NCBI GenBank assembly: GCA_913052575.1 | Contig: CAJXFK010000016.1 | Location: 1 to 34,333, forward strand | Direction: 5' to 3' | Length of the DNA: 34,333 bases | Source of the DNA: an uncultured Planctomycetaceae bacterium | GTDB lineage: Bacteria > Planctomycetota > Planctomycetia > Pirellulales > UBA1268 | Shown: piece by piece, positions 8,377 to 33,887 of the stretch | Numbering within the stretch: position 1 is the first letter of the stretch | Layout: each line of letters opens with the position of its first letter | The notes under the pieces: generated by a model | What the model was told of the DNA's origin: nothing | The model's database searches: none | Seen by the model: the letters and a program-made list of their open reading frames with translations, nothing else | Program-made: the position numbers and the translations under genes

Positions 8377-9444
8377 CTAATTCTCACCCGAGGAACCTGA
8401 TTCAAAATAAGACCGAAGAAAACGTGCTCTTTCAATATTTCGGTCTTTTGTATCTAGATCGATACCTTTCATTTTCTGAAGATGTGCTGGCTGAGTGCGG
8501 ACGAGTAATTTATTCACGTCGGATACATGGAGATCATCGACAAGACCAAGCAAAACTCCCATGCGAACACGTGAAAGTAGCTGCATTGTTTCCTCAGCAC
8601 TAATCGTTTGAGCTGTTCTAAGAATTCCAAAGGCACGGCTAACTTGATCATGTACATTCCGCTCAGTCTCCTCTAGGAGAAATTCTCGGGCACGCCGTTC
8701 ATAATCAATCAGCACAGGGACAACATCAGCCACTTGATTAATCAGCTCACTTTCTGAGCGACCAAGAGTGATCTGATTCGATATCTGATAAAAATCCCCA
8801 AATGCCTGTGATCCCTCTCCATAAAGACCTCGAACAGCCAAAGAGATTTTGTGCAGACTTCGGAAAACCTTATCGATCTGTCGTGTGATTACTAATGCTG
8901 GGAGATGGAGCATAACGCTCACTCGTATTCCAGTACCTACGTTTGTTGGACATGCCGTCAAATATCCCCATCGTTCATGGAATGCATAGGGAACCACTGC
9001 CTCAATTTCTTCGTCTACACTACGAATCTGGTCCCACACCGCTTGCAGATCTAAGCCGCTATGCAGGCACTGTATCCGGAGATGATCCTCCTCATTGATC
9101 ATGAGGCTTACCTGCTCCGCAGAGTCAATCGCCACGCCACGCGCGCCAGTAGCATCGGCGTGCTCCCGACTTATTAACTGACGCTCAACCAGAAATTGGC
9201 GATCAAGGTCCTCGAGGCCACCGAGATTCATATATTCCAGACGCGAGCCAACGGATGTTTTACTAAGCCTTGAACGGAGAAACTCTTCAACCTCACTTCT
9301 TTCCGACTCTGAAGCCCGACCAACAAACGGATAGTGTGCAAGGTTACGTGCAAGCCGCACACGGCTGCTCATGACAATGTCTGATTCTGGTCCGGTTCCC
9401 TTCAGCCACTCACCAACAGATGACTTTAACACTTCAAATTTCAT
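8377..9444 (-). CDS. mcsB: Protein-arginine kinase McsB (ATP:guanido phosphotransferase family)
   Basis: IVMSSRVRLARNLAHYPF, and TACPTNVGTGIRVSVMLHLP with the guanido-kinase catalytic Cys. Confidence 0.93.
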   Translation of the reverse strand: MKFEVLKSSVGEWLKGTGPESDIVMSSRVRLARNLAHYPFVGRASESERSEVEEFLRSRLSKTSVGSRLEYMNLGGLEDLDRQFLVERQLISREHADATGARGVAIDSAEQVSLMINEEDHLRIQCLHSGLDLQAVWDQIRSVDEEIEAVVPYAFHERWGYLTACPTNVGTGIRVSVMLHLPALVITRQIDKVFRSLHKISLAVRGLYGEGSQAFGDFYQISNQITLGRSESELINQVADVVPVLIDYERRAREFLLEETERNVHDQVSRAFGILRTAQTISAEETMQLLSRVRMGVLLGLVDDLHVSDVNKLLVRTQPAHLQKMKGIDLDTKDRNIERARFLRSYFESGSSGEN

Positions 9445-9565: not shown

Positions 9566-10111
9566 TTATTGCTTAGTCTCCTCTGCCTGCCATTGATGAA
9601 GAATTTTTTTAATATCATCTCGTAGTTTTCCAGCTACTTCATAATCTTCACCCTCGACAGCCTCACGAATTTCTTTCCTCATGCCAATGACACTTGTAAG
9701 CTCTTCAGTTGACTCCGGCAAAACAGATTGATCTTCTGCCGACTTATCCCTATTAGGGCGACATCCTGTGTGTTTCACATCACCGTGAATGTTGGCTATC
9801 AAGGGCTCCAACTCTTCTTCGAATTGAACGTAATCGTGCGGACAGCCGAGTCTTCCTTGGTTACGAAACTCAAAAAATGTGATGCCACACATGTCACAAA
9901 CTTTTTGATCAATTTCGGATAATTCTTTCGCCGTCTGTCCAACACCAATGGAACCACTTTCATCATCGGAGTCTTCTGGCTGTGAATCTGCTTCAGCCTG
10001 ATTTAAGTACACGCGTGCATGATCCTCACACAGATGAAGTTCCCGGACATCGCCTGTCTCTAACTCTGTGATGTGAAACATCGCCTGTTTATCGCACTGC
10101 TGACATTGCAT
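9566..10111 (-). CDS. mcsA: McsA-like zinc-finger/UVR-motif activator of McsB
   Basis: MQCQQCDKQAMFHITE, CEDHARVYL, CDMCGITFFEFRNQGRLGCPHDY, and a C-terminal UVR motif; directly upstream of mcsB. Confidence 0.88.
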   Translation of the reverse strand: MQCQQCDKQAMFHITELETGDVRELHLCEDHARVYLNQAEADSQPEDSDDESGSIGVGQTAKELSEIDQKVCDMCGITFFEFRNQGRLGCPHDYVQFEEELEPLIANIHGDVKHTGCRPNRDKSAEDQSVLPESTEELTSVIGMRKEIREAVEGEDYEVAGKLRDDIKKILHQWQAEETKQ

Positions 10112-18696: not shown

Positions 18697-20493
18697 CTAA
18701 CGAACTGGGTCAAAAAGAATCGCATGTAGGCTTGCCCGTTCAAGGTCTCCTTCGAGACATTGGACAAATACCCGATGCCTGCCGCTCTCTCGAAATTTAA
18801 GCCACCCAATCGGAAACGTCTGGTAGTTATGCGAAGAGTTTTGTTGGTTTTGAATAGATTTTCCACCATCAATACCGACCCGCCAAACAAGCCTTCCTTC
18901 TCCAGCATAATTTAGTGATACCTGATATTCACCAGGGATAAGAACATCGACTTCCCAAGACAATTCAGCTTCAGTATCAAACCCATGGCCGTGCACAATC
19001 CGTTTCCATTCACCAAACTTTTCCATCCAACGTTTCTCTGACTTTTTTAATCCGCCGACATCAGCAAACTCCACGGGTAGTCTTGTAATTGCCTCAGGAT
19101 CAATCGTGAGAGCTGGATCAATTATTGGGATTTCAGTGAAATTCAATTCAATGACCGACGCTAGCACCTCTGGAGCTTTCGCCGGGACACGAATAACTAT
19201 GTGTTTACCGCGACGCTCGCAGACAAGATCAACGGACCCACTACTTTGTAACAATTTCACCCGTTCAACGTCCTGCTGAACATTTGGAAGATAGAGCTCA
19301 CCAGATTTTGGCCAATGAAAAACTGAAAGGGAAAATGTCTTATTTTTTCGGGTCACATCACCCCAAGGCATTGCATGCTGCCAAGGCGAACCTTCAACGT
19401 CGTACACAACCTGTGGATAGCGAGCAATCCACTCACCAGCAGCACGCAGCGATTCGGCACATCGCAAAGAAACACTTCCGTCGCCACGCGGACCTATATT
19501 CAACATATATGTGCCACCTCTGGCAACGCAGGCAATGAGACGTTCAAGTATTTGTTTTGGTGATTTCCAGTTTTCGTCATACCACGCATATGCCCACGAA
19601 TCGTTTGTGGTATCAACGCTTTCCCATAGCCCATCAATATTAACGATAGGCACTTCCATATCACCAAGCGTCTGATAATCGCCAAGCCCATGGCCAGCAC
19701 GCCCAGACACGAGTGCTCGAGGCTGGTTTTGGTGTACCACTTCGACAAGCTTTTCAACATAGTGTTTCGGCATTGCTCCAGGTGTATCAAACCACACAAT
19801 TTCTATCGGACCGTATTGCGTTGTGATCTCCCTAACCTGAGGCAGACATTTCTTCTCAAAATAATCATCGAAGGTTGCAGGCTTACCATTCGCATCCACT
19901 TTTGGACCATTTCCGCCCCCCGGAAACGTCCAGTCTTGATTGTGGGAATAATAAAACCCAAAACCAAGCCCCTGATTACGGCAAGCCGCTGCCAGATCCT
20001 TCATTGGATCTTTGCTCCAAGGAGTTGCGTCCACAATATTAAAGTCGCATGCCTTTGATTCATACATGGCGAAGCCATCATGGTGCTTGGCAGTGATAAC
20101 TATATATTTCATCCCTGCATCACGGGCGAGCTTTGCAATGGCATCTGCATCAAAATCGACAGGATTGAATGTCTTTGCAAGTTCCTTGTACTCGGCAATA
20201 GGAATACCAGCCATCCGCTGATTCATGATCCATTCGCCTATACCGTAATAGGTTTTCCCATCTACCTTATTGCCTAACTGGGAGTACAGCCCCCAATGAA
20301 TAAACATTGCGTAATTGCCCTGATCAAAGAGCTGCCCCCTGCTTGCATTTTCAGCCCTGAGCTTGATGACACGTGCACCCCACAAACCATCCATAGACTG
20401 CTTATTATTGACACTCTCAACAGCATTACTTTCATGAATAAAACTGATAGAAAAGATTGCGACCGACACGAAAACAAGAATGCTGATTCTCAT
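18697..20493 (-). CDS. Secreted alpha-L-fucosidase (GH29)
   Basis: Signal peptide; YAMFIHWGLYSQLG, YIVITAKHHDGFAMYESK, FGFYYSHNQDW, IEIVWFDTPG (nucleophile Asp region). Confidence 0.9.
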   Translation of the reverse strand: MRISILVFVSVAIFSISFIHESNAVESVNNKQSMDGLWGARVIKLRAENASRGQLFDQGNYAMFIHWGLYSQLGNKVDGKTYYGIGEWIMNQRMAGIPIAEYKELAKTFNPVDFDADAIAKLARDAGMKYIVITAKHHDGFAMYESKACDFNIVDATPWSKDPMKDLAAACRNQGLGFGFYYSHNQDWTFPGGGNGPKVDANGKPATFDDYFEKKCLPQVREITTQYGPIEIVWFDTPGAMPKHYVEKLVEVVHQNQPRALVSGRAGHGLGDYQTLGDMEVPIVNIDGLWESVDTTNDSWAYAWYDENWKSPKQILERLIACVARGGTYMLNIGPRGDGSVSLRCAESLRAAGEWIARYPQVVYDVEGSPWQHAMPWGDVTRKNKTFSLSVFHWPKSGELYLPNVQQDVERVKLLQSSGSVDLVCERRGKHIVIRVPAKAPEVLASVIELNFTEIPIIDPALTIDPEAITRLPVEFADVGGLKKSEKRWMEKFGEWKRIVHGHGFDTEAELSWEVDVLIPGEYQVSLNYAGEGRLVWRVGIDGGKSIQNQQNSSHNYQTFPIGWLKFRESGRHRVFVQCLEGDLERASLHAILFDPVR

Positions 20494-20733
20494 TCAGTAA
20501 CCCTTCTATAAAAACGCAGAGATCGTATTCATGCCCCTAAGATACAGCAAAACAGAGGTGAGTATCATCCGAGTAAAACTACACATCCGGCATAATAATG
20601 AACGGCCCATATCGAACTAAATATCCTCTGAAGTTTAGTCACCCTATCCTTTCTCTCAATCGGGAGAACACATGACACTCAACATACCGATCGCCATACT
20701 ATCACCGAACGACCGACACCTACGTCATCTCAC

Positions 20734-21486
20734 TTAAAGCTTCAATGCTCGTTGTCGATAATGCTCATCGGTTCGATTTGAGATTCGGTCAACATCCTCA
20801 GCGCTCATAAAAGTAGGCCCTCCCAATGCGGCTGCTCCCACAAAAATTTCTGCAGCCTTGTGAGCCATTAGCATCGCTGCTTTCACAGCCCCCGAGGTCT
20901 TGCCAAGAGTGATAATGCCATGATTTTCAAGCAGAATTACGCGAGGGGCACAGCCAAAATCATCGAGATACGTATCGGTCGCAAGACGAATTGATTTGGA
21001 CAGCGACAATCCAGGATCGGTGTAAGGAATAAGCACCGAGCGAGCACCACAGCACACAATTTCATCAGGAAAAAGCTTTCGTGTTGCAAATTGACTCGCA
21101 CGTGGTGAACAGAGAATCTGATTCACTGCGATACTATGCGTATGACCAACAAAATGGATACCCTCCAGCGACAACAGATACGCATGAAACAGAGTCTCGA
21201 CAGACGGCTTTTTTGCTGATACGTCAACTCGACTCGCCAAAAGCAAGTCTTCAATTACCTGATCTGACATCGTATCTTGATCAAGCATGGGAAGAAGAGA
21301 ATCAAACCTGCACGCAACAAGATCCTCGCTCGTGAGTGTCTGAAGGCAACTACCACTCGCTTTGACAAGAAACGTGTGCTCGTCAATCCGAGCCGATGTG
21401 TTTCCTTCACCAAGAATAGCCAACTGTCGCTTCTCTTCACCAAGAAAATGTGAGAGTTCTAACAGAGTATCTTGAGTTGTCGACAT
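20734..21486 (-). CDS. Class II aldolase/adducin domain protein (sugar-phosphate aldolase)
   Basis: LGEGNTSARIDEHTFLVKASG, FVGHTHSIAVNQIL, VILLENHGIITLG. Resembles the aldolase half of RhaD/YuxG fusions more than compact FucA. Confidence 0.8.
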   Translation of the reverse strand: MSTTQDTLLELSHFLGEEKRQLAILGEGNTSARIDEHTFLVKASGSCLQTLTSEDLVACRFDSLLPMLDQDTMSDQVIEDLLLASRVDVSAKKPSVETLFHAYLLSLEGIHFVGHTHSIAVNQILCSPRASQFATRKLFPDEIVCCGARSVLIPYTDPGLSLSKSIRLATDTYLDDFGCAPRVILLENHGIITLGKTSGAVKAAMLMAHKAAEIFVGAAALGGPTFMSAEDVDRISNRTDEHYRQRALKL

Positions 21487-21549
21487 AATGCTTCCGTGTC
21501 TTTACAAAGTACAAACACTCATACCACCTCTACTTATACAACACCTTCT

Positions 21550-23385
21550 CTACACACGACCGTAGAGAGGACCAAAAGCCTCACAGGCTCTAAAGTCAGC
21601 TCCTTCAAGACCATCAGTACCAAAAGCATTCCATGCACTTGGCCGGAACACTCTATCAGCTGCCACATTATGCATGTAGACGGGAATTCTGAGGATAGAT
21701 GCCAACGTTATGAACAAATGCCCGACGTGGCCGGCAGTCATCACACAGTGGTTTGCACCCCAATGATTCATGACCTCATATGTGGAAGTAAACGCGCCCC
21801 GCCCAGTAATTGTCGGGGCAAACCAGGTGGTTGGCCATGTTGGATTCGTTCGCTGATCAAGAACGTCGTGAACTGACTCGGGGAGTTCAACCGTATAGCC
21901 CTCTGCAATCTGAATTGCTGGCCCGAGACCTGCTACCAAATTAATACGAGTCATGGTTGCCGGCATGCCTCCGAGGGTCCGATACCGGGTGCTCAGACCA
22001 CCCCCAGGAAAGTATTCTGTGATCGATGGATGCCAGGTTGTTGCCTGAAGGCACTTCGTTGCTTCGTCATCAGTTATCTCCCAGAACGGCTTCATTGTCG
22101 GCGTGCCGTCTTGATCCATTTGTTGCCCCGTACCATCAAGTGCCGCCGGCCCAGAATTAATAAGATGGAGCAAGCCATCAGCTGCTGCCCCCTCTAACTG
22201 ATAGCCTTCACAGGCTCCGGCAACTGCCTCGGGACTCCAATACGTACGCAAATCAGCAAAAATTTGCGCGGTGTTGGTAAGCAAGTGCCCACACAGCATA
22301 GTAGCTGCATTGAGAGCATCATTCTCGGTGGCAACGATATAGGGTGCCCGCTTACCATTCCAGTCAAAAGAGGTATTGAGTATGGCTTCAAGAAAATCAC
22401 CATTCGGAAAATGATCGGTCCATTGTCGCTGGCCCTGAAACCCAGCGGCAATTGCACCGTGTCCCTGTGCCTGTTCCTGGAGCCCCATCTCAGCAAGTCG
22501 CTTGTTGCCAACCATCAAATCACGAGCAATCAAACACATTTTTACGGAGTCGGACCACTCCGAATCAAGATGCTCGCGGGATCGTTTCGTTTCGTCGCTA
22601 TTGTAGTCATCACCCTCCGGGCAATTTTCTTTCACCCAGGCAAGAGCCTCCTCGCACTCATCATGATCAAACTGCCCTTTGTTCATGCGCCCGACAAACT
22701 CGGTCATGTCGATGTCTTCAACTCGCATGCCGAACCATTTTTCCCAAAACGCATAGTCAACCATTGAGCCAGCAATGCCCATCGAAGTACCGCCCATCGA
22801 TAAATAGGCTTTGCCCCTCATCAACGCAGCGGCAAGACCACATCGGGCAAAATCGAGGATTTTACTCCGCACATCAGCGGGCATATGAGCGTCACCAGCG
22901 TCCTGTACGTCTCGACCATATATCCCAAATGCGGGAATACCCTTCTGGCTGTGTCCTGCAAGTACTGCAGCGAGATACACAGCACCCGGACGTTCGGTAC
23001 CATTGAATCCAAATACTGCCTTCGGCCGTAACGGATCCATGTCCATGGTCTCACTTCCGTAGCACCAACAGGGTGTTACCGTCAGTGAGACTCCTACGTT
23101 TTCTCGACGAAACAAGTCATCACACGCACTGGCCTCAGCAACTCCACCGATGCATGTTTCCGCTATGACGCAGTCTACTGGTGCACCATTTGGATAGCGC
23201 AGCTCACTGGACACCAATTCTGCTACACGGCTGGCCAGATTCATCGTCTGGTCTTCCAACGATTCACGAACTCCACCAAGTCGGCCATCAATTGTTGGCC
23301 GAATACCAATTCTCGGGAGGACACCATTCCAAATTGTGGGGACTGTACTCATGGATATTCTCTCATCAAAAAAATTCTTGAACAA
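21550..23385 (-). CDS. fucI: L-fucose isomerase
   Basis: [41 protein letters not shown]; length and order typical of FucI. Start probably 23352. Confidence 0.93.
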
Positions 23386-23401
23386 TGAAAACTCTCATCA
23401 A

Positions 23402-24811
23402 TCAGCTCTCTACGGCAGGCTTCGGAGAAAACAAGGCAACCGCAAAGCCAAAAACTGCAACCACCACAAAGCAACTCAGTGGAAGGAAAAACGAGAGGCG
23501 TACTGGCTCAAGCATCTGACCAGCGATGGTCATGCCGTCGCCATCAATTATTGCACCTTGTAAACGTGGCATAAACGCACCACCAACAATTGCAAAAATC
23601 AAACCCGCTGATCCTAATTTCGCATCATTTGGGCTGAGTCCGTTCAGGGCAATTCCATAAATTGTTGGAAACATGAGCGACATACAAGCAGACACACCGA
23701 CTAGACAGTAAAGACCTGTGAACCCCTGCAGGAAGATTGCCCCGGCAGTCAGCAGACCACCTCCCACAGCGAGTACACCAAGCAACAAGCCGGGAGCCAT
23801 GTATTTCAGTATGAACGTACAGATAAAACGACTCGCAAGAAAAATACCCATGGCAAGAATGTTGTAATTCTGTGCTTGGGCAGCACTTAATCCCACAAGC
23901 GTCATTCCATAGTGAATAACAAATGTCCAAGTCATTATCTGTGCACCAACATAGAAAGTTTGTGCAATAACACCCCCGACATACTGCCAATTTGTAAACA
24001 GGTTCTGAGCGAGCGTCATAACGTGAATCTCTTCATCTTCCTGCCCTGTGTCCGGCAGCCTCGAAATAACAAAAAGCAGCAGGACAGCGAGTACGACTAA
24101 AGCGATAACTACATAAGGGGTCCTGACAACTGCTAAATCATGGGAGACCATTGCCTCATACTTCTGCGGTTCCGCCGTTGCAGAATCTTCCATTGCTTTG
24201 GTTATGAGTTTATCGACATCACTGGGCAGCATCGTTGCATATTCTGGATGTCTCGCAATCTCGGCCTCTCGAAATTGTGAGACTTCAAGCCCCGGGAGAA
24301 TGAACATGCTCGCCACCACCATGCCGGTAAGAGACCCAATTGGATTAAATGCTTGAGCCAGGTTTAGTCTTTGCGTTGCAGTACTTCGTGGCCCCATTGA
24401 GAGGATATACGGATTGGCCGTTGTCTCCAAGAAAGCAAGGCCAAACGTCAGAATGTAGAAACCCACAAGGAAGACATTAAATTCCATCATCAAGCTTGCT
24501 GGAATAGTCATCGCAGCACCTACTGCATAGAGAAGCAGCCCAATAATAATCCCAGACTTGTACGACACTTTTCGAATAAGCAGTGCTGCTGGAATCGCCA
24601 TCGTGGCATATCCACCATAGAAGGCCCATTGCACTAAGCTGCTTTGTGCATTGGAAATAAGGAATATTTCTTTAAAGGCACGAACGAGTGGATTAGTGAT
24701 GTCGTTCGCAAATCCCCATAACGCAAACAATGACGTTACAAGAATGAACGGTACAACGAACTGTTTCGGAACAACCGACTCTCGCGACGTCGATATTGTT
24801 GATTCCTCCAT
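23402..24811 (-). CDS. fucP: L-fucose:H+ symporter-like MFS permease
   Basis: FILVTSLFALWGFANDITNPLV, GLAFLETTANPYIL, RLNLAQAFNPIGSLTG: FHS-family motifs; polytopic. Confidence 0.9.
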   Translation of the reverse strand: MEESTISTSRESVVPKQFVVPFILVTSLFALWGFANDITNPLVRAFKEIFLISNAQSSLVQWAFYGGYATMAIPAALLIRKVSYKSGIIIGLLLYAVGAAMTIPASLMMEFNVFLVGFYILTFGLAFLETTANPYILSMGPRSTATQRLNLAQAFNPIGSLTGMVVASMFILPGLEVSQFREAEIARHPEYATMLPSDVDKLITKAMEDSATAEPQKYEAMVSHDLAVVRTPYVVIALVVLAVLLLFVISRLPDTGQEDEEIHVMTLAQNLFTNWQYVGGVIAQTFYVGAQIMTWTFVIHYGMTLVGLSAAQAQNYNILAMGIFLASRFICTFILKYMAPGLLLGVLAVGGGLLTAGAIFLQGFTGLYCLVGVSACMSLMFPTIYGIALNGLSPNDAKLGSAGLIFAIVGGAFMPRLQGAIIDGDGMTIAGQMLEPVRLSFFLPLSCFVVVAVFGFAVALFSPKPAVES

Positions 24812-25177: not shown

Positions 25178-26236
25178 CTACTGTGACTGATTTTTTTCAC
25201 AGTCGTCGTCTGCCGGAACCGAGGGTCCCACCTCATCAACGGGATGTGTATACAAGTAGCGCCACACTGATTCGTGCATATACTTGCCACCCTTGCTTTG
25301 AAATGCCCGACTGCCCGGCTGCACACTGCCGTGTGCTTTTTTTTCATTACCACCCACATCGAAGTCAGTAATCAAGCGACGCGTGTTTTGATATGGAGGC
25401 CGTGAGTTATCGACATTGACAATCGGGCCATACTGATTCATTCCCAACATTTCCCAACTGCGACAATAGTGATCCGCTTTCCATCCACTATCGAGAACGT
25501 GCGTGAATCCAAAATAGCGATTTGTGGGGGTTGCCGAGGGCAGGGCCTGCCACATCTGATATTGATCACGGGGACCACACAACGTAACGACGCGACTGAC
25601 TTTGACATACTTTGCGAACCGTGCAGCGGTGGTGGAGCCATGCGAACTGCCAGAAACAATAACTTTTTCCCAATTGATTCCCTTTCTATCTGCATTCAAA
25701 AATTGCCCCCAGTCGCCTTCGGGATTAGCGTGCTCTAACCACTTAACAAATTGGTAGGCACGTTCCATCATGCCGTCAGGTTTCGGAATACTGACCTCAT
25801 CACTGAAATCTGTTCCTGTCGCTGCTTCTAACCGAATATTTCCGCGACAGTGTGGACCAACGGGTTTCTCTTGGCAACAAACGGAAAACCACGACCTCGC
25901 ATACTCCACTTGCACTGCATGTAACCCGTAGTCAGCAAGACGATCAAAGAGAGCTTGATTGTGACTCATGAGCCAGATAACAAGCTTGCCACGCTGAGGG
26001 ACCGACGTATCAACAATTGCATTTTGAACATCAGCAGGCTTACCACTGGCGGTTTCAAGTACGAATTTGATTTCCGGATGTGACCGTACTCGACGATCGA
26101 TGGCACTCGCTCTCACTTGCAGTTCATAACGCTTGGGTTTTGATGTAATCTGTTCTGCCAATACGAGTTGCCCGCACGTTACATATAATGCGACTCCAGT
26201 GAACACAAACACTGAGAAACTAATCTTGGTCCCCAT
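25178..26236 (-). CDS. Secreted alpha/beta-hydrolase, BPSS1187-like
   Basis: Signal peptide; nucleophile elbow SGSSHGSTTAARFA; LVIWLMSHNQALFDRLADYGLHAVQVEYA. Confidence 0.65.
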   Translation of the reverse strand: MGTKISFSVFVFTGVALYVTCGQLVLAEQITSKPKRYELQVRASAIDRRVRSHPEIKFVLETASGKPADVQNAIVDTSVPQRGKLVIWLMSHNQALFDRLADYGLHAVQVEYARSWFSVCCQEKPVGPHCRGNIRLEAATGTDFSDEVSIPKPDGMMERAYQFVKWLEHANPEGDWGQFLNADRKGINWEKVIVSGSSHGSTTAARFAKYVKVSRVVTLCGPRDQYQMWQALPSATPTNRYFGFTHVLDSGWKADHYCRSWEMLGMNQYGPIVNVDNSRPPYQNTRRLITDFDVGGNEKKAHGSVQPGSRAFQSKGGKYMHESVWRYLYTHPVDEVGPSVPADDDCEKNQSQ

Positions 26237-26729: not shown

Positions 26730-27551
26730 TCATGCCGCTGCTGCATGGAGTCGTTCATAAATCTGCTCGATATCGTCTGCCTGAATAGTCGTATCAGGCT
26801 GGCTCCCTGCAACAACTTGAGCCATACCGACAAGACGAAAGACATCTTCTAGAATTCCACCAGTTATTTGATGAACGACCACCCACGCGCTCTCTGAGCA
26901 TGCATGGCCATTCGTGGCCAGCCGAGTTTCTACAATGCTTCGTGTCTCAGAAAGCGAAAGTGGATGAATTACTGAACGTAACAAAACCTTATCAAGCAAT
27001 CCACGATCTCGAGATAACAGCGTCATCAAACGACCCCGCCCACCAAGAACAACTGAAGCCCTTGGCGCCTGCAGCCATATTGCTTCAGAAACAGACCCCA
27101 ACAGATCAACTGTTGCGAGATGACAATTATCAATGACGACAACAACGTTACCGGTAGCTCGACATGCCGCAAACTGCGAAGAAACTTCGGCTTGCCTCAC
27201 ATCAATATGCACAACATGCGATGCTCCATAAAGCTTCGTTACAAGAGCACTCATAACGGTTGACACACCGGAACCGCCAGGACCACAAAGGACTGCAAGG
27301 CTCGACTCCTGCAAGACAGCGTACTGCAAGCGTGCAAGAGCAGCACGCTGAGAATGAAATAGTTGTATCGCAGAGGGCTGAGTTTTTATTCCACCAACCA
27401 CCACCCCAGAAGGTGACCTTAACCCAGGAGCCCCAGAACGACTTCTCTGCGAGTCCTTAGACATCAATGGCTTTGCTTGATTCAACATCGCGATCTCCAG
27501 CATTAGGCAACCTGGCAGGAATCTGCAGAATCTTGTGACCGTGAACCACAT
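26730..27551 (-). CDS. ExeA-like AAA ATPase with degenerate Walker motifs
   Basis: LCGPGGSGVSTVMSAL (Walker A Lys->Val), VVVVIDNCHLA (Walker B Glu->Asn), SLSETRSIVETRLATNG C-terminal pattern. Start probably 27488. Confidence 0.7.
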   Translation of the reverse strand: MWFTVTRFCRFLPGCLMLEIAMLNQAKPLMSKDSQRSRSGAPGLRSPSGVVVGGIKTQPSAIQLFHSQRAALARLQYAVLQESSLAVLCGPGGSGVSTVMSALVTKLYGASHVVHIDVRQAEVSSQFAACRATGNVVVVIDNCHLATVDLLGSVSEAIWLQAPRASVVLGGRGRLMTLLSRDRGLLDKVLLRSVIHPLSLSETRSIVETRLATNGHACSESAWVVVHQITGGILEDVFRLVGMAQVVAGSQPDTTIQADDIEQIYERLHAAAA

Positions 27552-28261
27552 TCCATCTCACCTGAAAAGGTTACAACCTCGCCTATTGGAAAGACGCCTA
27601 GCTCTCCGAGGAGTTGCTGCCGGTGAGGGCAGGGCGGCACGTCCGCGTGACGAACTAACAGTACCGCATCACAACCAAATACTCGTGATGCCATCTCTCT
27701 CCTTCGGAATGGACCACGAGTAAACCAGATGCCGGCATCTACCAGGACAATGCTTTGCTTGCTGCTTGGAACACTCGTGCGTGCTTGATCTCGATGCCAC
27801 GCCACCGACTGAGAGTCATCAATTAATTCGCACCAAAGCTCCTGCATGGTATCGAGACATCGTACCTGCCAACCTGACGCATTGAGGATGGTGAACAAAC
27901 CTTGCGCGATCGTTGTCCGTCCCTCCTGAACCCGATGGCCAGCAATTGCGATTACACGATGACCACCTTCCTGAGCTTCGATAACGCGATCAGTGATTGC
28001 TTTCCACTGCGATGGTAACGCTGCCAACAAACCGGCCAGAGTATCGCTGAAATTTTTACCTTTACAACCGACCTTACCCTTCGATGTGTCTTGGTTCCGA
28101 TTTACTACTTGTGTTTTCTGAGGAATCCTCTCACCGCTTTGTTTTGCAACTGAGACAGCAGTGACTTCTTCTGACTCCAGACCTGCCGCCCCCGACGCAC
28201 GCTGTCGTGTTATCGACACTTGTTGATCTATAAAGCTTTGATCGAGACGGTCGAATTCCAT
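27503..28261 (-). CDS. CpsD/CapB (BY-kinase)-like P-loop protein, degenerate Walker A
   Basis: VIAIAGHRVQEGRTTIAQGLFTILNASGWQVRCLD and SIVLVDAGIW align with the CpsD architecture; no Tyr-rich tail. Confidence 0.65.
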   Translation of the reverse strand: MEFDRLDQSFIDQQVSITRQRASGAAGLESEEVTAVSVAKQSGERIPQKTQVVNRNQDTSKGKVGCKGKNFSDTLAGLLAALPSQWKAITDRVIEAQEGGHRVIAIAGHRVQEGRTTIAQGLFTILNASGWQVRCLDTMQELWCELIDDSQSVAWHRDQARTSVPSSKQSIVLVDAGIWFTRGPFRRREMASRVFGCDAVLLVRHADVPPCPHRQQLLGELGVFPIGEVVTFSGEMECGSRSQDSADSCQVA

Positions 28262-28864
28262 TTACTGCCTGCTCTTCTCTTGGTGGTAAGACGTAACAGG
28301 GGCCTCCGCAAACCGAATAGAATTCATTTCTGTTGACTCCGTTTTCATTACAGGCTGCTGTTCAACAAAAAAGACACGCATCCAGATAACTGCTGCTACC
28401 AAGGACAGCACCCATAATGTCAGTGATGGCCTTAATGCCCCCGAGGGCTCCGTTTTTTTCTTGCGATTACGCGAGCTACGTTGATTTGTGGAGAGACCTC
28501 CTTGCCGCCCACCAGCGGAGCCCTGCTTTTTTGTGTGTCGCTGATGCATCACATTTAATACACCGTCCTGCTGAAGTGTCTGCTCATTGCGAAGAGGCAC
28601 GGCTTCCGGTGGTTCTTTATCCTTAGAATTTGGCCCAATGCTATTACGAGGAGCGATTTCACAAGAAGCTCTCCGTGCCGCTTTTGCATCGTGTTCTTTC
28701 AGGGACTCCGACAAACCCTTTCCGTCGTTCAGCATGTTCGACACGGAAGTCGATTGTGCTCTCTCTACTGACTTAGAGCTACGGGTGTGCTCATCACATC
28801 CATCTTCTGGAAGTGGGCCGCGTTCGGTTTGTCGTACATGTGGAAACGCTGTAATTAAATCCAT
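28262..28864 (-). CDS. Hypothetical single-TM protein with long hydrophilic N-terminal region
   Basis: About 140 charged/low-complexity residues, basic NRKKK, TM LTLWVLSLVAAVIWMRVFF, short tail. Directly abuts the next ORF. Confidence 0.6.
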   Translation of the reverse strand: MDLITAFPHVRQTERGPLPEDGCDEHTRSSKSVERAQSTSVSNMLNDGKGLSESLKEHDAKAARRASCEIAPRNSIGPNSKDKEPPEAVPLRNEQTLQQDGVLNVMHQRHTKKQGSAGGRQGGLSTNQRSSRNRKKKTEPSGALRPSLTLWVLSLVAAVIWMRVFFVEQQPVMKTESTEMNSIRFAEAPVTSYHQEKSRQ

Positions 28865-29159: not shown

Positions 29160-32100
29160 ATGGAGATTACTAATAGCCGATCGACAGAATTTCTCGATCT
29201 TCTTAATGACCGAATTGCCATTCTTGATGGCGCAATGGGCACAATGGTTCATACCCTCGGCTTAGATGAGCAGGGTTTTCGAGGAAAACCTTTCCAAGAC
29301 CATAGCCGAGACCTCAAAAACTGCATCGATGTTTTGACATTGTCTCAACCAGATGCCATTCGTCAAATTCACTCTTCGTTCCTTGAAGCGGGAGCTGATA
29401 TTGTTGAGACGAACACATTCGGCGCTACATCGGTTGCGCTAGCAGACTTTGGGCTCTCGGGCCAGACCCGGGAACTCAATCTGGCTGCCTGCAAGATCGC
29501 ACGGGAAGCAGCTGACGCAGCAACGGCCAAATCGCCTCATAAACCAAGATTCATTGCCGGCTCTATGGGGCCAACGAATAAGCAACTGTCAATTGCTGGA
29601 AATGTGGCTGACCCTGGACACCGTGATGTCACTTTTGATGAGATGGTTGCGTGCTATAGGGAACAGGTTGAGGCCCTCCTTGAAGGCGGCGTCGACCTTC
29701 TCCTTGCAGAAACAGCATTCGATACGCTGGTTCTCAAAGCAGCCCTATTTGCGATCGAAGAGGCATTCCAATCAACAGGTATTGCCGTACCGATCATGGC
29801 CTCATTTACCGTTTTCGAAGGAGGCCGTACGCTCTCCGCTCAGACTGTTGAGGCATGCTTTCAAAGTATTTCACATGCTAATATTATAAGCGCGGGGATC
29901 AACTGTGCCCTCGGACCAGAGAAGCTACGCCCGTACCTGGCAGACCTTTCCCGCATCTGCCCCGCAATGGTGAGCTGCTACCCTAATGCCGGCCTTCCAA
30001 ATGCCCTCGGTGGCTTTGATGAGACCCCGGAAATGATGGCCTCGGTCATTGGTGAGTTCGCGAAAGATGGTTTTCTTAACATTGTTGGTGGATGTTGTGG
30101 CACAACTCCTGACCACATTCGCGCAATTTCTGAAGCTGTTTCACCTCACCCCACAAGAAAACCAGCAAAGCCGCTGCGATTGAGTCGTTACTCTGGCCTT
30201 GAGCTTCTTGAAGTGCGTCCTGAGAGTAGTTTTACAATAATTGGTGAACGCACGAACGTAACCGGTTCAAAAGCATTTTCTCGACTCATTAAAGAAGAGA
30301 ACTATGAAGCCGCTCTAAGCGTCGCCCGGCAGCAGGTAGAAAATGGTGCAAATTTAATCGACATAAATGTCGACGAAGGAATGATTGACGGGCCAGCAGT
30401 CATGACGAAATTCCTGACACTGATCTCAAGCGAACCAGACATATCCCGCGTTCCTATCATGATCGACTCCTCTCGCTGGGAAGTGCTCGAAGCTGGACTG
30501 AAGTGCATCCAGGGCAAGGGTGTCGTCAACTCCATCAGCATGAAAGAGGGTGAGGAGACGTTCCTCAAACAGGCCCGCATCATTCGAAGCTATGGAGCAG
30601 CTGTGGTCGTCATGGCATTCGACGAGGAAGGCCAGGCCACAGACATCGAAAACAGAGTCGCTATCTGCGAGCGAGCCTACCGCCTGCTTACAGAAAAAGC
30701 TGACTTCCCTCCAGAAGATATCATCTTCGACCCCAACATTCTCACCGTCGCAACGGGGATGGAGGAACATAATCGCTACGCAATGAACTTTATTGAGGCA
30801 ACGCGTCAAATTAAAGAAAAAATGCCCCTGGTGAAAATATCTGGTGGCGTGAGTAATATTTCGTTTTCATTTCGCGGTAATAACGCTGTTCGCGAGGCGA
30901 TGCATGCGGCTTTTCTTTATCATGCCATTAAGGCCGGCATGGATATGGGCATTGTCAATGCAGGACAACTCGCGCTCTATGAAGAAATTACTCCTGAACT
31001 TCTTGAAAGAATTGAAGACGTTCTCTTTGATCGCCGAACAGATGCAACCGACAGATTGATTGAATTTGCAGAAACCGTGAAGGGTGAAGGAGGCATCAAT
31101 TCTGAAAAAATTGATGAGTGGCGTGAATTTGATGTTGATGGTCGTCTAGCCCACGCATTATTGAAAGGCCTTACGGATCATATTGAAGACGATATTGAAG
31201 AGGCTCGAAAGCAATACGACACAGGCCTAAAAATCATTGAAGGCCCACTTATGAGCGGCATGCAAATCGTTGGCGACCTCTTCGGTGAAGGCAAGATGTT
31301 TCTTCCTCAAGTTGTGAAAAGTGCTCGTGTCATGAAGAAGGCTGTCGCGCACCTCCTGCCCTACATGGAAGAGGAACGAAAATCACAAGGTGCCGCTGCG
31401 AAAAAGCGTGGTCGCATTTTGTTAGCAACTGTGAAAGGTGATGTTCACGACATCGGGAAGAACATTGTTGGTGTCGTTTTAGGGTGCAACAACTATGAGA
31501 TCATTGACATTGGCGTTATGGTTCCTTGTGCAACGATCATCGATAAGGCCAGGGAAGAAGACGTAGACATAGTAGGCCTTTCTGGCCTTATCACTCCAAG
31601 TCTTGACGAGATGGTGCAGGTCGCAAAAGAGTTTGAACATGAAAAATTCAAGGTCCCGCTTTTGATAGGTGGTGCTACTACCTCAGCTCGACACACTGCA
31701 GTTAAAATTGCACCTCAATACTCAGGAAGCATCATTCATGTAACAGATGCCTCACGCGCTGCCGGTGTAGCTGAAAAACTTTTGAATCCGAATACCCAAG
31801 AAGCATTTGCGATAGCGAATCGCGAAGCTCAGGCAAGAGATTTGGAGAACTTCCAGAAGCGTCAGCAAGTAAAACTTGTACCGTATAAAACCGCCATCGA
31901 AAAACGATGGACGACTGATTGGTCATCGGCCGAAATAGAAAAGCCTAGTTTTCTTGGCCTGCAACCACTTCCTGTGGTCTCACTTGAAGAACTTGTTCCG
32001 TTTATCGACTGGTCTCCTTTTTTCATGGCCTGGGAATTAAAAGGCAAGTATCCAGGCATTTTTGATGATGCAATTGTGGGCAGTGAGGCCAAGAAACTTT

Positions 32101-32852
32101 TTAATGATGCACAAAGACTTCTTGATGAAATTGTTTCAAAACAAAAATTAGAAGCCCGAGGAGTCTACGGATTCTTCCCGGCTAACAGTGACGGGGATGA
32201 TATCATCCTCTTTGACGATGAATCTCGTAAAAATGAACTTGGACGAGTCTGCACGCTGAGGCAACAATGGGAACGTCGAGGCCAAGACACGTTTTATGCA
32301 TTAGCTGACTTCATTGCCCCCGTGTCGAGTCGTCGGGAAGACTATCTGGGCGCCTTTGCATGTACAACTGGCCATGGTTGTGAAGAACTCGCTGAGAAGT
32401 TTGATAAAGACCACGATGACTACAACTCCATTATGGTGAAGGCGCTCGCTGACCGGCTTGCTGAAGCATTTGCCGAATGGCTTCACCAGAGAGCTCGGCA
32501 GGAATGGGGATTCGGAAAACAAGAAAAACTCAGCACTGACGAACTTATTTCAGAAAAATATCGAGGAATTCGTCCAGCGCCTGGTTATCCGGCCTGTCCT
32601 GATCACACAGAAAAACCCGGCCTTTTCCAGTTGCTCGATGCCAGAAATGTTGCTGGCATGAATCTCACTGAGAGTTTTGCAATGACTCCAGCGGCAAGTG
32701 TCTGTGGACTCTACTTTGGCCACCCAGAAAGCCGATACTTCGCTGTAGACAGAATCACACGTGAACAAGTGGAGTCATATGCCGCCCGGAAAGGCATGTC
32801 GGAGCCAGATATTGAACGCTGGCTCGCTCCAAACCTTGGATACGACCCTTGA
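29160..32852 (+). CDS. metH: Cobalamin-dependent methionine synthase
   Basis: Full domain order: Hcy-binding (GINCALGP...GGCCGTTP), pterin-binding ([11 protein letters not shown]), B12-binding [14 protein letters not shown], activation domain [15 protein letters not shown]. Confidence 0.96.
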
Positions 32853-32903: not shown

Positions 32904-33887
32904 ATGGCAACGAGTCACAAGCAACAGAAAAATACAGCGAAGAGATCAAGAATACGAAAAATTGCTTTCGAGGGCCCGCAAAGTAAGCCAATCTCCTCAA
33001 TCTGTATTGAAGAACTCACGGAGAAATTTCTCCAATTCACACGGCACGAACGAGGCCTTGCAGAGAACACCCAATCAGCCTATCAAAGAGATCTCCAGAC
33101 TTATGGTGCGTGGCTCAACGGGCGGTCACCGCTGACTGTAACCATTCAAAACCTGGGTGATTACCTCGGTACGCTTTCTGATAAGGGTCAGTCTCGTGCG
33201 ACAATTGCAAGAAAAGCAGCAACGCTTCGTTGCTTCTACTCCTTCTTGCAACTTGAGGGAGTTTTGGTTGATAACCCAGCTGAGCAACTTGTCTTAGCTC
33301 GCCGTGACGACACAATTCCTGCAGTACTTTCGCCTCGTCAGGTTGATCAATTACTCAACAGTCCATCACGCTTCACTGCCGCTGGAGTACGGGACCGCGC
33401 TCTGTTAGAGCTGCTCTATGCCACCGGATGTCGCGCCTCGGAGGTCTCTTCGCTGCAATTAAAAGATCTTCGTCTCGAAGAACAGTTCTGCACATGCCGA
33501 GGAAAAGGAAATAAAGAACGAGTAGTACCTCTTGGCCAGCGGGCTCATTCTGCAATCACCCAGTGGATGCAAGACTACCGACCTCAATTCCTATTAGAAT
33601 CAACCGAACAAAACCACCTCATTGTTTCAAGCAGAGGAAATAAGCTTTCGAGAATGCGGATATGGGAAATTGTTCATGAGCACGCCACGTCAGCAGGACT
33701 CGCAAATAACATCTCACCACACACACTTCGACATAGCTTTGCCACTCATCTTGTCGCCGGCGGTGTCGACCTGAGACACGTCCAAGAAATGCTCGGGCAT
33801 GCTAGTATCGCTACAACACAACGATACACCCATGTTGACTCCGGACGATTAAAAAACGTTCATGAGCAATTCCACCCAAGAAGCTAA
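32904..33887 (+). CDS. xerD: Tyrosine recombinase XerC/XerD
   Basis: Catalytic residues in GCRASEV, HTLRHSFATHL, LGHASIATTQRYTHV; SAM-like N-terminal domain. Confidence 0.92.
   Translation: MATSHKQQKNTAKRSRIRKIAFEGPQSKPISSICIEELTEKFLQFTRHERGLAENTQSAYQRDLQTYGAWLNGRSPLTVTIQNLGDYLGTLSDKGQSRATIARKAATLRCFYSFLQLEGVLVDNPAEQLVLARRDDTIPAVLSPRQVDQLLNSPSRFTAAGVRDRALLELLYATGCRASEVSSLQLKDLRLEEQFCTCRGKGNKERVVPLGQRAHSAITQWMQDYRPQFLLESTEQNHLIVSSRGNKLSRMRIWEIVHEHATSAGLANNISPHTLRHSFATHLVAGGVDLRHVQEMLGHASIATTQRYTHVDSGRLKNVHEQFHPRS

Follow-up and report, generated by a model that had tools for sequence, protein, structure and literature searches.

A compact three-gene locus in a planctomycete draft genome is probably a stripped and relocated XrtA-type set of co-polymerase, tyrosine kinase, and ATPase, kept as a membrane-tethered BY-pseudokinase scaffold. 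The locus lies in a window of 34,333 nucleotides, by which we mean the whole stretch of DNA analyzed, from the draft genome G000 (2.9 Mb, 84.7% complete). It encodes a single-pass membrane protein (gene 1), a CpsD/BY-kinase/MinD-like protein (gene 2), and an ExeA/XrtA-type AAA+ protein (gene 3). The trio is kept under selection across nearly the whole planctomycete order, and no description of such a gene set in planctomycetes was found in the open-access literature searched.

The tight packing of three minus-strand genes noted in the first-pass annotation is borne out. The ORFs are all present at 28262-28864 (gene 1, 200 aa), 27503-28261 (gene 2, 252 aa), and 26730-27551 (gene 3, 273 aa), with the stop codon of gene 1 abutting the ATG of gene 2 and a TAATG at 27503 overlapping the stop of gene 2 with an in-frame ATG of gene 3. 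This ATG is the likelier start of gene 3, giving a protein of 257 aa (26730-27503), because the frame shared with a 93%-identical relative begins only at residue 17. The trio thus shows a tightly coupled, operon-like packing and is divergent from metH, a plus-strand gene (29160-32852) identified by Pfam as a cobalamin-dependent methionine synthase, which serves here as a context marker and is not proposed as a part of the module. Directly downstream of metH lies an XerC/D-type tyrosine recombinase gene (32904-33887, plus strand). Just downstream of the trio is a gene for a BPSS1187-family protein (25178-26236, minus strand; NCBIfam score above the cut-off), which follows the trio in the two closest relatives too. 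The window also contains an apparent L-fucose catabolic cluster (18697-24811, minus strand), comprising an alpha-L-fucosidase, a class II aldolase, a fucose isomerase, and an MFS (FucP-like) transporter, and a McsB-like arginine kinase gene (8377-9444, minus strand; ATP-gua_Ptrans, 1.5e-70) beside a small ORF (9566-10111, minus strand) that might be McsA. A search for Rfam families in the window returned none.

By itself, gene 2 of the window yields no credible single-sequence match. The profile of its family matches the CapB, Wzc, and MinD structures (best E value 1e-7), as well as Etk, BceF, VpsO, FlhG, and, weakly, BcsQ, and relatives from the order match TIGR01007 and TIGR03018. The protein is built of a short conserved N-terminal motif (FDRLDQSF), a linker, and a SIMIBI-type domain in which most of the catalytic parts of a BY-kinase are missing. 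In the window, the P-loop reads AGHRVQEGRTT (Walker A, GHRVQEGRTT, at 27911-27940), with the lysine changed to arginine at residue 115. Of 88 sequences from the trio loci, 87 have another residue in place of the lysine (R in 42, C in 25, others in 20), while the glycine before it never varies and the T/S after it hardly does. The one exception is L115 (GEGKTS); the other lysine in the raw census, from L145, belongs to a full-length GumC and so is not counted as a trio exception. The ExxRxxR oligomerization motif was seen in 0/22 sequences of the window's family, 3/66 other trio sequences, and 19/34 outgroup sequences, and the Walker A' motif (hhDxD) in 0/22, 32/66 elsewhere in the order, and 29/34, respectively. 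The Walker B aspartate is retained, at residue 175 in the strand IVLVDAG (27731-27751), and is invariant in both alignments. Gene 2 of the window has no tyrosine at all, hence no C-terminal tyrosine cluster, and so cannot autophosphorylate a tyrosine tail of its own. A quick tree built from 124 kinase domains sets the trio versions apart by a single branch with moderate support (SH-aLRT 83), which fits a single early loss of the lysine and one regain. Over the whole tree, the presence or absence of the lysine requires five changes.

The closest family of gene 3 is the XrtA ATPase, TIGR03015. The window protein reaches E=5e-7 (29.3 bits) and its orthologues in the order reach 1e-46 to 1e-55 over the full length (159-186 bits), neither attaining the curated cut-off of 324.5 bits. 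Sequence comparison establishes that gene 2 is a homologue of BY-kinases and gene 3 one of the XrtA ATPase. AlphaFold runs from three-row alignments gave poor models (mean pLDDT 33.5 and 49.2); the low-confidence model of gene 3 retrieved AAA+ clamp loaders and RuvB in Foldseek with a TM score of about 0.35, which is consistent with an AAA+ fold but not diagnostic of it. The P-loop of the window protein is CGPGGSGVST (Walker A, GPGGSGVST, at 27258-27284), with the lysine changed to valine, and its Walker B is VVVIDNCHL (27126-27146 for VVVVIDN), in which DN replaces the usual DE. The lysine of the canonical GK[ST] is present in 73 of 83 sequences from the order; valine replaces it in G019 and in the window's genus (all eight aligned members), and threonine in G015. 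The loss is accordingly both recent and partly convergent, and it shows no correlation with the loss of exopolysaccharide genes, as G009, G015, and G019 lack the lysine and possess Wza.

The proposal that both NTPases are degenerate thus stands as regards the motifs EGRTT and GSGVST, but the two losses are not of the same age: that of the CpsD-like protein is old and order-wide, that of the ExeA-like protein nearly confined to one genus. Orthologues with canonical Walker motifs, which had been named as the sign of a local pseudogene or sequencing error, exist for the ExeA-like protein and not for the CpsD-like protein. The ExeA-like change is nonetheless not a local pseudogene, because it is common to the whole genus under purifying selection; with the dN/dS values given below, the genus-wide sharing of the substitutions led us to reject a pseudogene or local error. 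In this genus, gene 3 too probably no longer hydrolyzes ATP efficiently. A Walker A without lysine is not in itself proof of lost nucleotide binding, and gene 2 and gene 3 might be unusual working nucleotide switches that bind nucleotide, and perhaps hydrolyze it slowly, despite the missing lysine and that cycle at the membrane like MinD or BcsQ. The retained P-loop glycine and threonine, the profile matches to MinD, FlhG, and BcsQ, and the precedent of BcsQ functioning in a membrane-recruited SIMIBI complex (PMC7439463) all speak for such switches, but the additional absence of the Walker A' motif from gene 2 throughout the family, together with the missing lysine and altered Walker B of gene 3 in the genus, makes them decidedly unlikely.

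Gene 1 had been described as a single-TM protein with a long hydrophilic N-terminus, and indeed about 148 mostly hydrophilic residues, including a disordered basic linker, precede one TM segment (residues about 149-167; 28364-28420, predicted from hydropathy and flank counts), which is followed by a tail of 33 residues. Its relatives have no Pfam match, and outside the TM segment the sequences do not align between families. An unbiased Gibbs search upstream of the TM segment in 77 membrane proteins encoded at the homologous position recovered one strongly conserved element, PVLARLPDL, with an information content of 11.63 nats as against 6.19 +/- 0.11 in shuffled sets. Copies in family f1 begin right after the initiator methionine; the version in the window, DLITAFPHV (residues 2-10; 28835-28861), is among the more divergent. 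A second motif, VARFxGTIE-like, occurs near the C-terminus in a subset of the homologues (among them L131, L138, L140, L141, and L102; 7.88 versus 5.74 +/- 0.11 nats in shuffled sets), presumably on the outer side of the membrane.

The first motif matches the docking strand that polysaccharide co-polymerases use to bind their BY-kinases. A matrix built solely from gene 1-type proteins was scanned over 20 full-length GumC/Wzc kinases of the same phylum, and in 14 of them its single best site was juxtamembrane, 19-23 residues after TM2; column-permuted matrices placed their best site there in a mean of 2.9 and a maximum of 9 of the 20, or of 7 when the tight spacing is required. Among three-TM XrtA-type chain-length determinants encoded beside canonical kinases, the best site lay between TM2 and TM3 in five of six; the determinant of locus L163 does not show the motif by this test. 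In Staphylococcus aureus, CapA docks onto CapB through its juxtamembrane alphaA-betaA element, in which Phe221 makes contact with the nucleotide (PMC3795738); the tail of CapA1 scores only 1.9 bits with the matrix. The layout of gene 1 corresponds to the last third of a three-TM determinant, namely docking strand, basic stretch, TM3, and short tail. The flanking charges fit an N-in topology by the positive-inside rule, being more basic before the TM segment in 48 of the 77 proteins and after it in 15, and the flanks of the window protein are likewise more basic on the N-terminal side. A topology inverted relative to that of the co-polymerases was considered and dropped, as the three-TM XrtA-type proteins show the same motif-TM-tail order. 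Compared with TIGR03007, gene 1 retains a docking-type motif (divergent in the window copy) followed by a C-terminal TM, but it is single-pass and lacks the Wzz-type periplasmic domain and TM1/TM2. From layout and motif, as opposed to alignable homology, we infer that gene 1 may be a relic of the C-terminal docking strand and TM3 of an XrtA-type determinant. The long upstream protein of locus L054 (471 aa) was rejected as a Wzz/GumC candidate, as it has no Wzz match and one TM.

The juxtaposition of an ExeA-type AAA+ protein with a single-TM protein might also recall the GspA/GspB (ExeAB) pair that inserts secretins. That gene 1 and gene 3 form such a pair is scarcely credible, as Pfam scans found neither GspB (T2SSB) nor a peptidoglycan-binding domain, gene 3 consists of the AAA domain only, without the C-terminal TM of ExeA/GspA, and is nearest to the XrtA ATPase, and gene 2 would be left unexplained.

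The resemblance to XrtA loci pointed out in the first-pass annotation is instead upheld, in that relatives of the two cytosolic proteins hit the families of the XrtA kinase and the XrtA ATPase, respectively, and gene 1 carries the co-polymerase docking motif. The trio shares with the XrtA/PEP-CTERM set (TIGR03007, TIGR03018, and TIGR03015) the kinds of protein, the kinase-then-ATPase order, and an upstream membrane protein whose counterpart, the XrtA determinant, bears the docking motif in its TM2-TM3 segment. It differs in the absence of the Wzz/periplasmic domain and TM1/TM2, in the loss of the kinase motifs, in its location outside an exosortase/EPS cluster, and in scores that all fall short of the curated thresholds. 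A possible picture of the unreduced state is offered by L163, a locus of the same phylum outside the order, where the genes run in the order ChnLen (TIGR03007, 6e-21), TyrKin (TIGR03018, 1e-30), and ATPase (TIGR03015, 6e-36) and the kinase has a canonical P-loop, GEGKTT; another locus, L162, has the same three kinds of gene in a different order. As all scores lie below the curated cut-offs, these sets are XrtA-like as opposed to certified XrtA. The trio would most simply be an L163-type set minus the periplasmic part, the kinase chemistry, and the polysaccharide locus. In another family of the phylum (L153-L156), single-domain kinases with an intact lysine adjoin three-TM chain-length determinants, and no ATPase gene was detected nearby.

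The neighborhood survey covered 22 loci of the window's family and 66 from other families of the order, with stretches of 20 kb or smaller read in all frames. Gene 2 and gene 3 are next to each other in 22/22 and 59/66 of these loci, respectively, and a membrane protein gene sits upstream of the pair order-wide; metH lies divergently beside the trio in 17/22 and 29/66. The gene 2 profile matches 193 of 198 genomes of the order, a count that includes some canonical kinases, so that the 88 inspected loci provide the firmer figure. Gene 3 was present in 33 of 39 relatives and is without an adjacent copy in seven loci of the order (L095, L098, L100, L115, L116, L143, and L146), so it is not always needed. 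Five loci without it, all of family f15, retain gene 1 and gene 2 beside metH, an arrangement that characterizes the genera of L115, L095, L098, L100, and L116.

Pairwise NG86 estimates of dN/dS, which had been suggested as a check for constraint, lie at 0.21-0.37 for gene 2, 0.24-0.27 for gene 3 (hence 0.21-0.37 across both NTPases), and 0.43-0.51 for gene 1, so the trio genes are constrained, not neutral. The stepwise loss of catalytic motifs and the disappearance of gene 3 from several genera are what a functionless, decaying remnant of an EPS locus would display, but with dN/dS far below 1 for both NTPases, coupled frames intact in 22/22 family loci, and retention throughout the order, such decay is highly improbable. 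The neighborhoods of the 88 loci likewise led us to reject a fragment of an EPS cluster. The suggestion of a standalone module is upheld by its recurrence order-wide, often beside metH, and by its persistence without detected Wzz, Wza, or exosortase.

The relation to polysaccharide export elsewhere in the genome bears on a further alternative, that the trio assists in trans an ordinary EPS or exosortase pathway encoded elsewhere, with a pseudokinase aiding a distant co-polymerase in the manner of EcpK of Myxococcus xanthus and HfsB of Caulobacter, two BY-pseudokinases argued to be scaffolds that serve a PCP (PMC12004946). Most of the 30 family genomes examined do encode an exosortase (24) or Poly_export (Wza, 22), and some encode Wzz (8), but none of the three markers was detected in G000, G002, G014, and G023, all of which hold the trio. 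These are draft MAGs, whose incompleteness tempers this absence (in the 84.7% complete G000, exosortase PF09721 was among the markers not found), and in one locus of the order (L056) the gene 2-gene 3 pair lies beside kpsF/kdsC-like genes for a KDO-type sugar. The trio has its own anchor, and it is usually outside polysaccharide loci; we consider the trans-acting role unlikely.

The preferred reading, a membrane-tethered pseudokinase scaffold derived from an XrtA-type set, finds partial parallels in several known systems. Gene 2 has BY-kinase homology without the catalytic motifs or tyrosine tail, as is characteristic of BY-pseudokinases, and in this resembles EcpK and HfsB. Those proteins are encoded with a full PCP-2 co-polymerase and work for it in EPS production, whereas no PCP lies beside the trio, which has instead a short anchor as membrane partner and an AAA+ ATPase in the set. 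The two-protein BY-kinases of the CapA/CapB type share the separation of a membrane modulator from a cytosolic kinase-like protein, but CapB2 is an active kinase with a tyrosine cluster and CapA is of the Wzz type with two TM segments. BcsQ, with BcsR, BcsE, and BcsF, offers a MinD-type protein recruited to the membrane via partners that include a short single-pass protein (PMC7439463); unlike the trio, it is embedded in a cellulose operon and has no homologous AAA+ partner.

We propose that gene 1 would tether gene 2 to the inner membrane via the docking strand, as CapA does CapB, and that gene 2 would act there as an adaptor instead of a kinase, both steps being suggested by motif and homology. 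Gene 2 may in turn recruit gene 3, as their adjacency and coupling hint. In most relatives, gene 3 could then spend ATP on assembling a client at the membrane or moving it there; hydrolysis is probably lost in the window's genus, which would leave a purely structural scaffold. The membrane scaffold role first suggested for the trio is thus kept here as an inferred one.

To our knowledge, every BY-pseudokinase scaffold described so far assists a full co-polymerase in a polysaccharide pathway. In the trio, the co-polymerase has apparently been cut down to a docking strand and one membrane helix, the kinase is without its chemistry, and the polysaccharide locus has been left behind, yet the trio is retained across almost the whole order. 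It therefore provides a natural test of what a kinase/ATPase pair does apart from phosphorylation, and the series from the canonical set through the kinase-dead state to that in which both are dead is open to direct comparison. It also adds a concrete core gene module to the study of bacteria in which the envelope and cell division are still poorly understood. A broader reading, which we offer tentatively and hold to be rather unlikely, is that the trio forms an undescribed module of the cell envelope or of polarity that is near-universal in the order, a BY-kinase system turned into a general membrane scaffold. If so, a BY-kinase system would have shed both polymerization and catalysis in bacteria with unusual envelopes and division, and in the window's genus the trio would operate with no canonical NTPase left.
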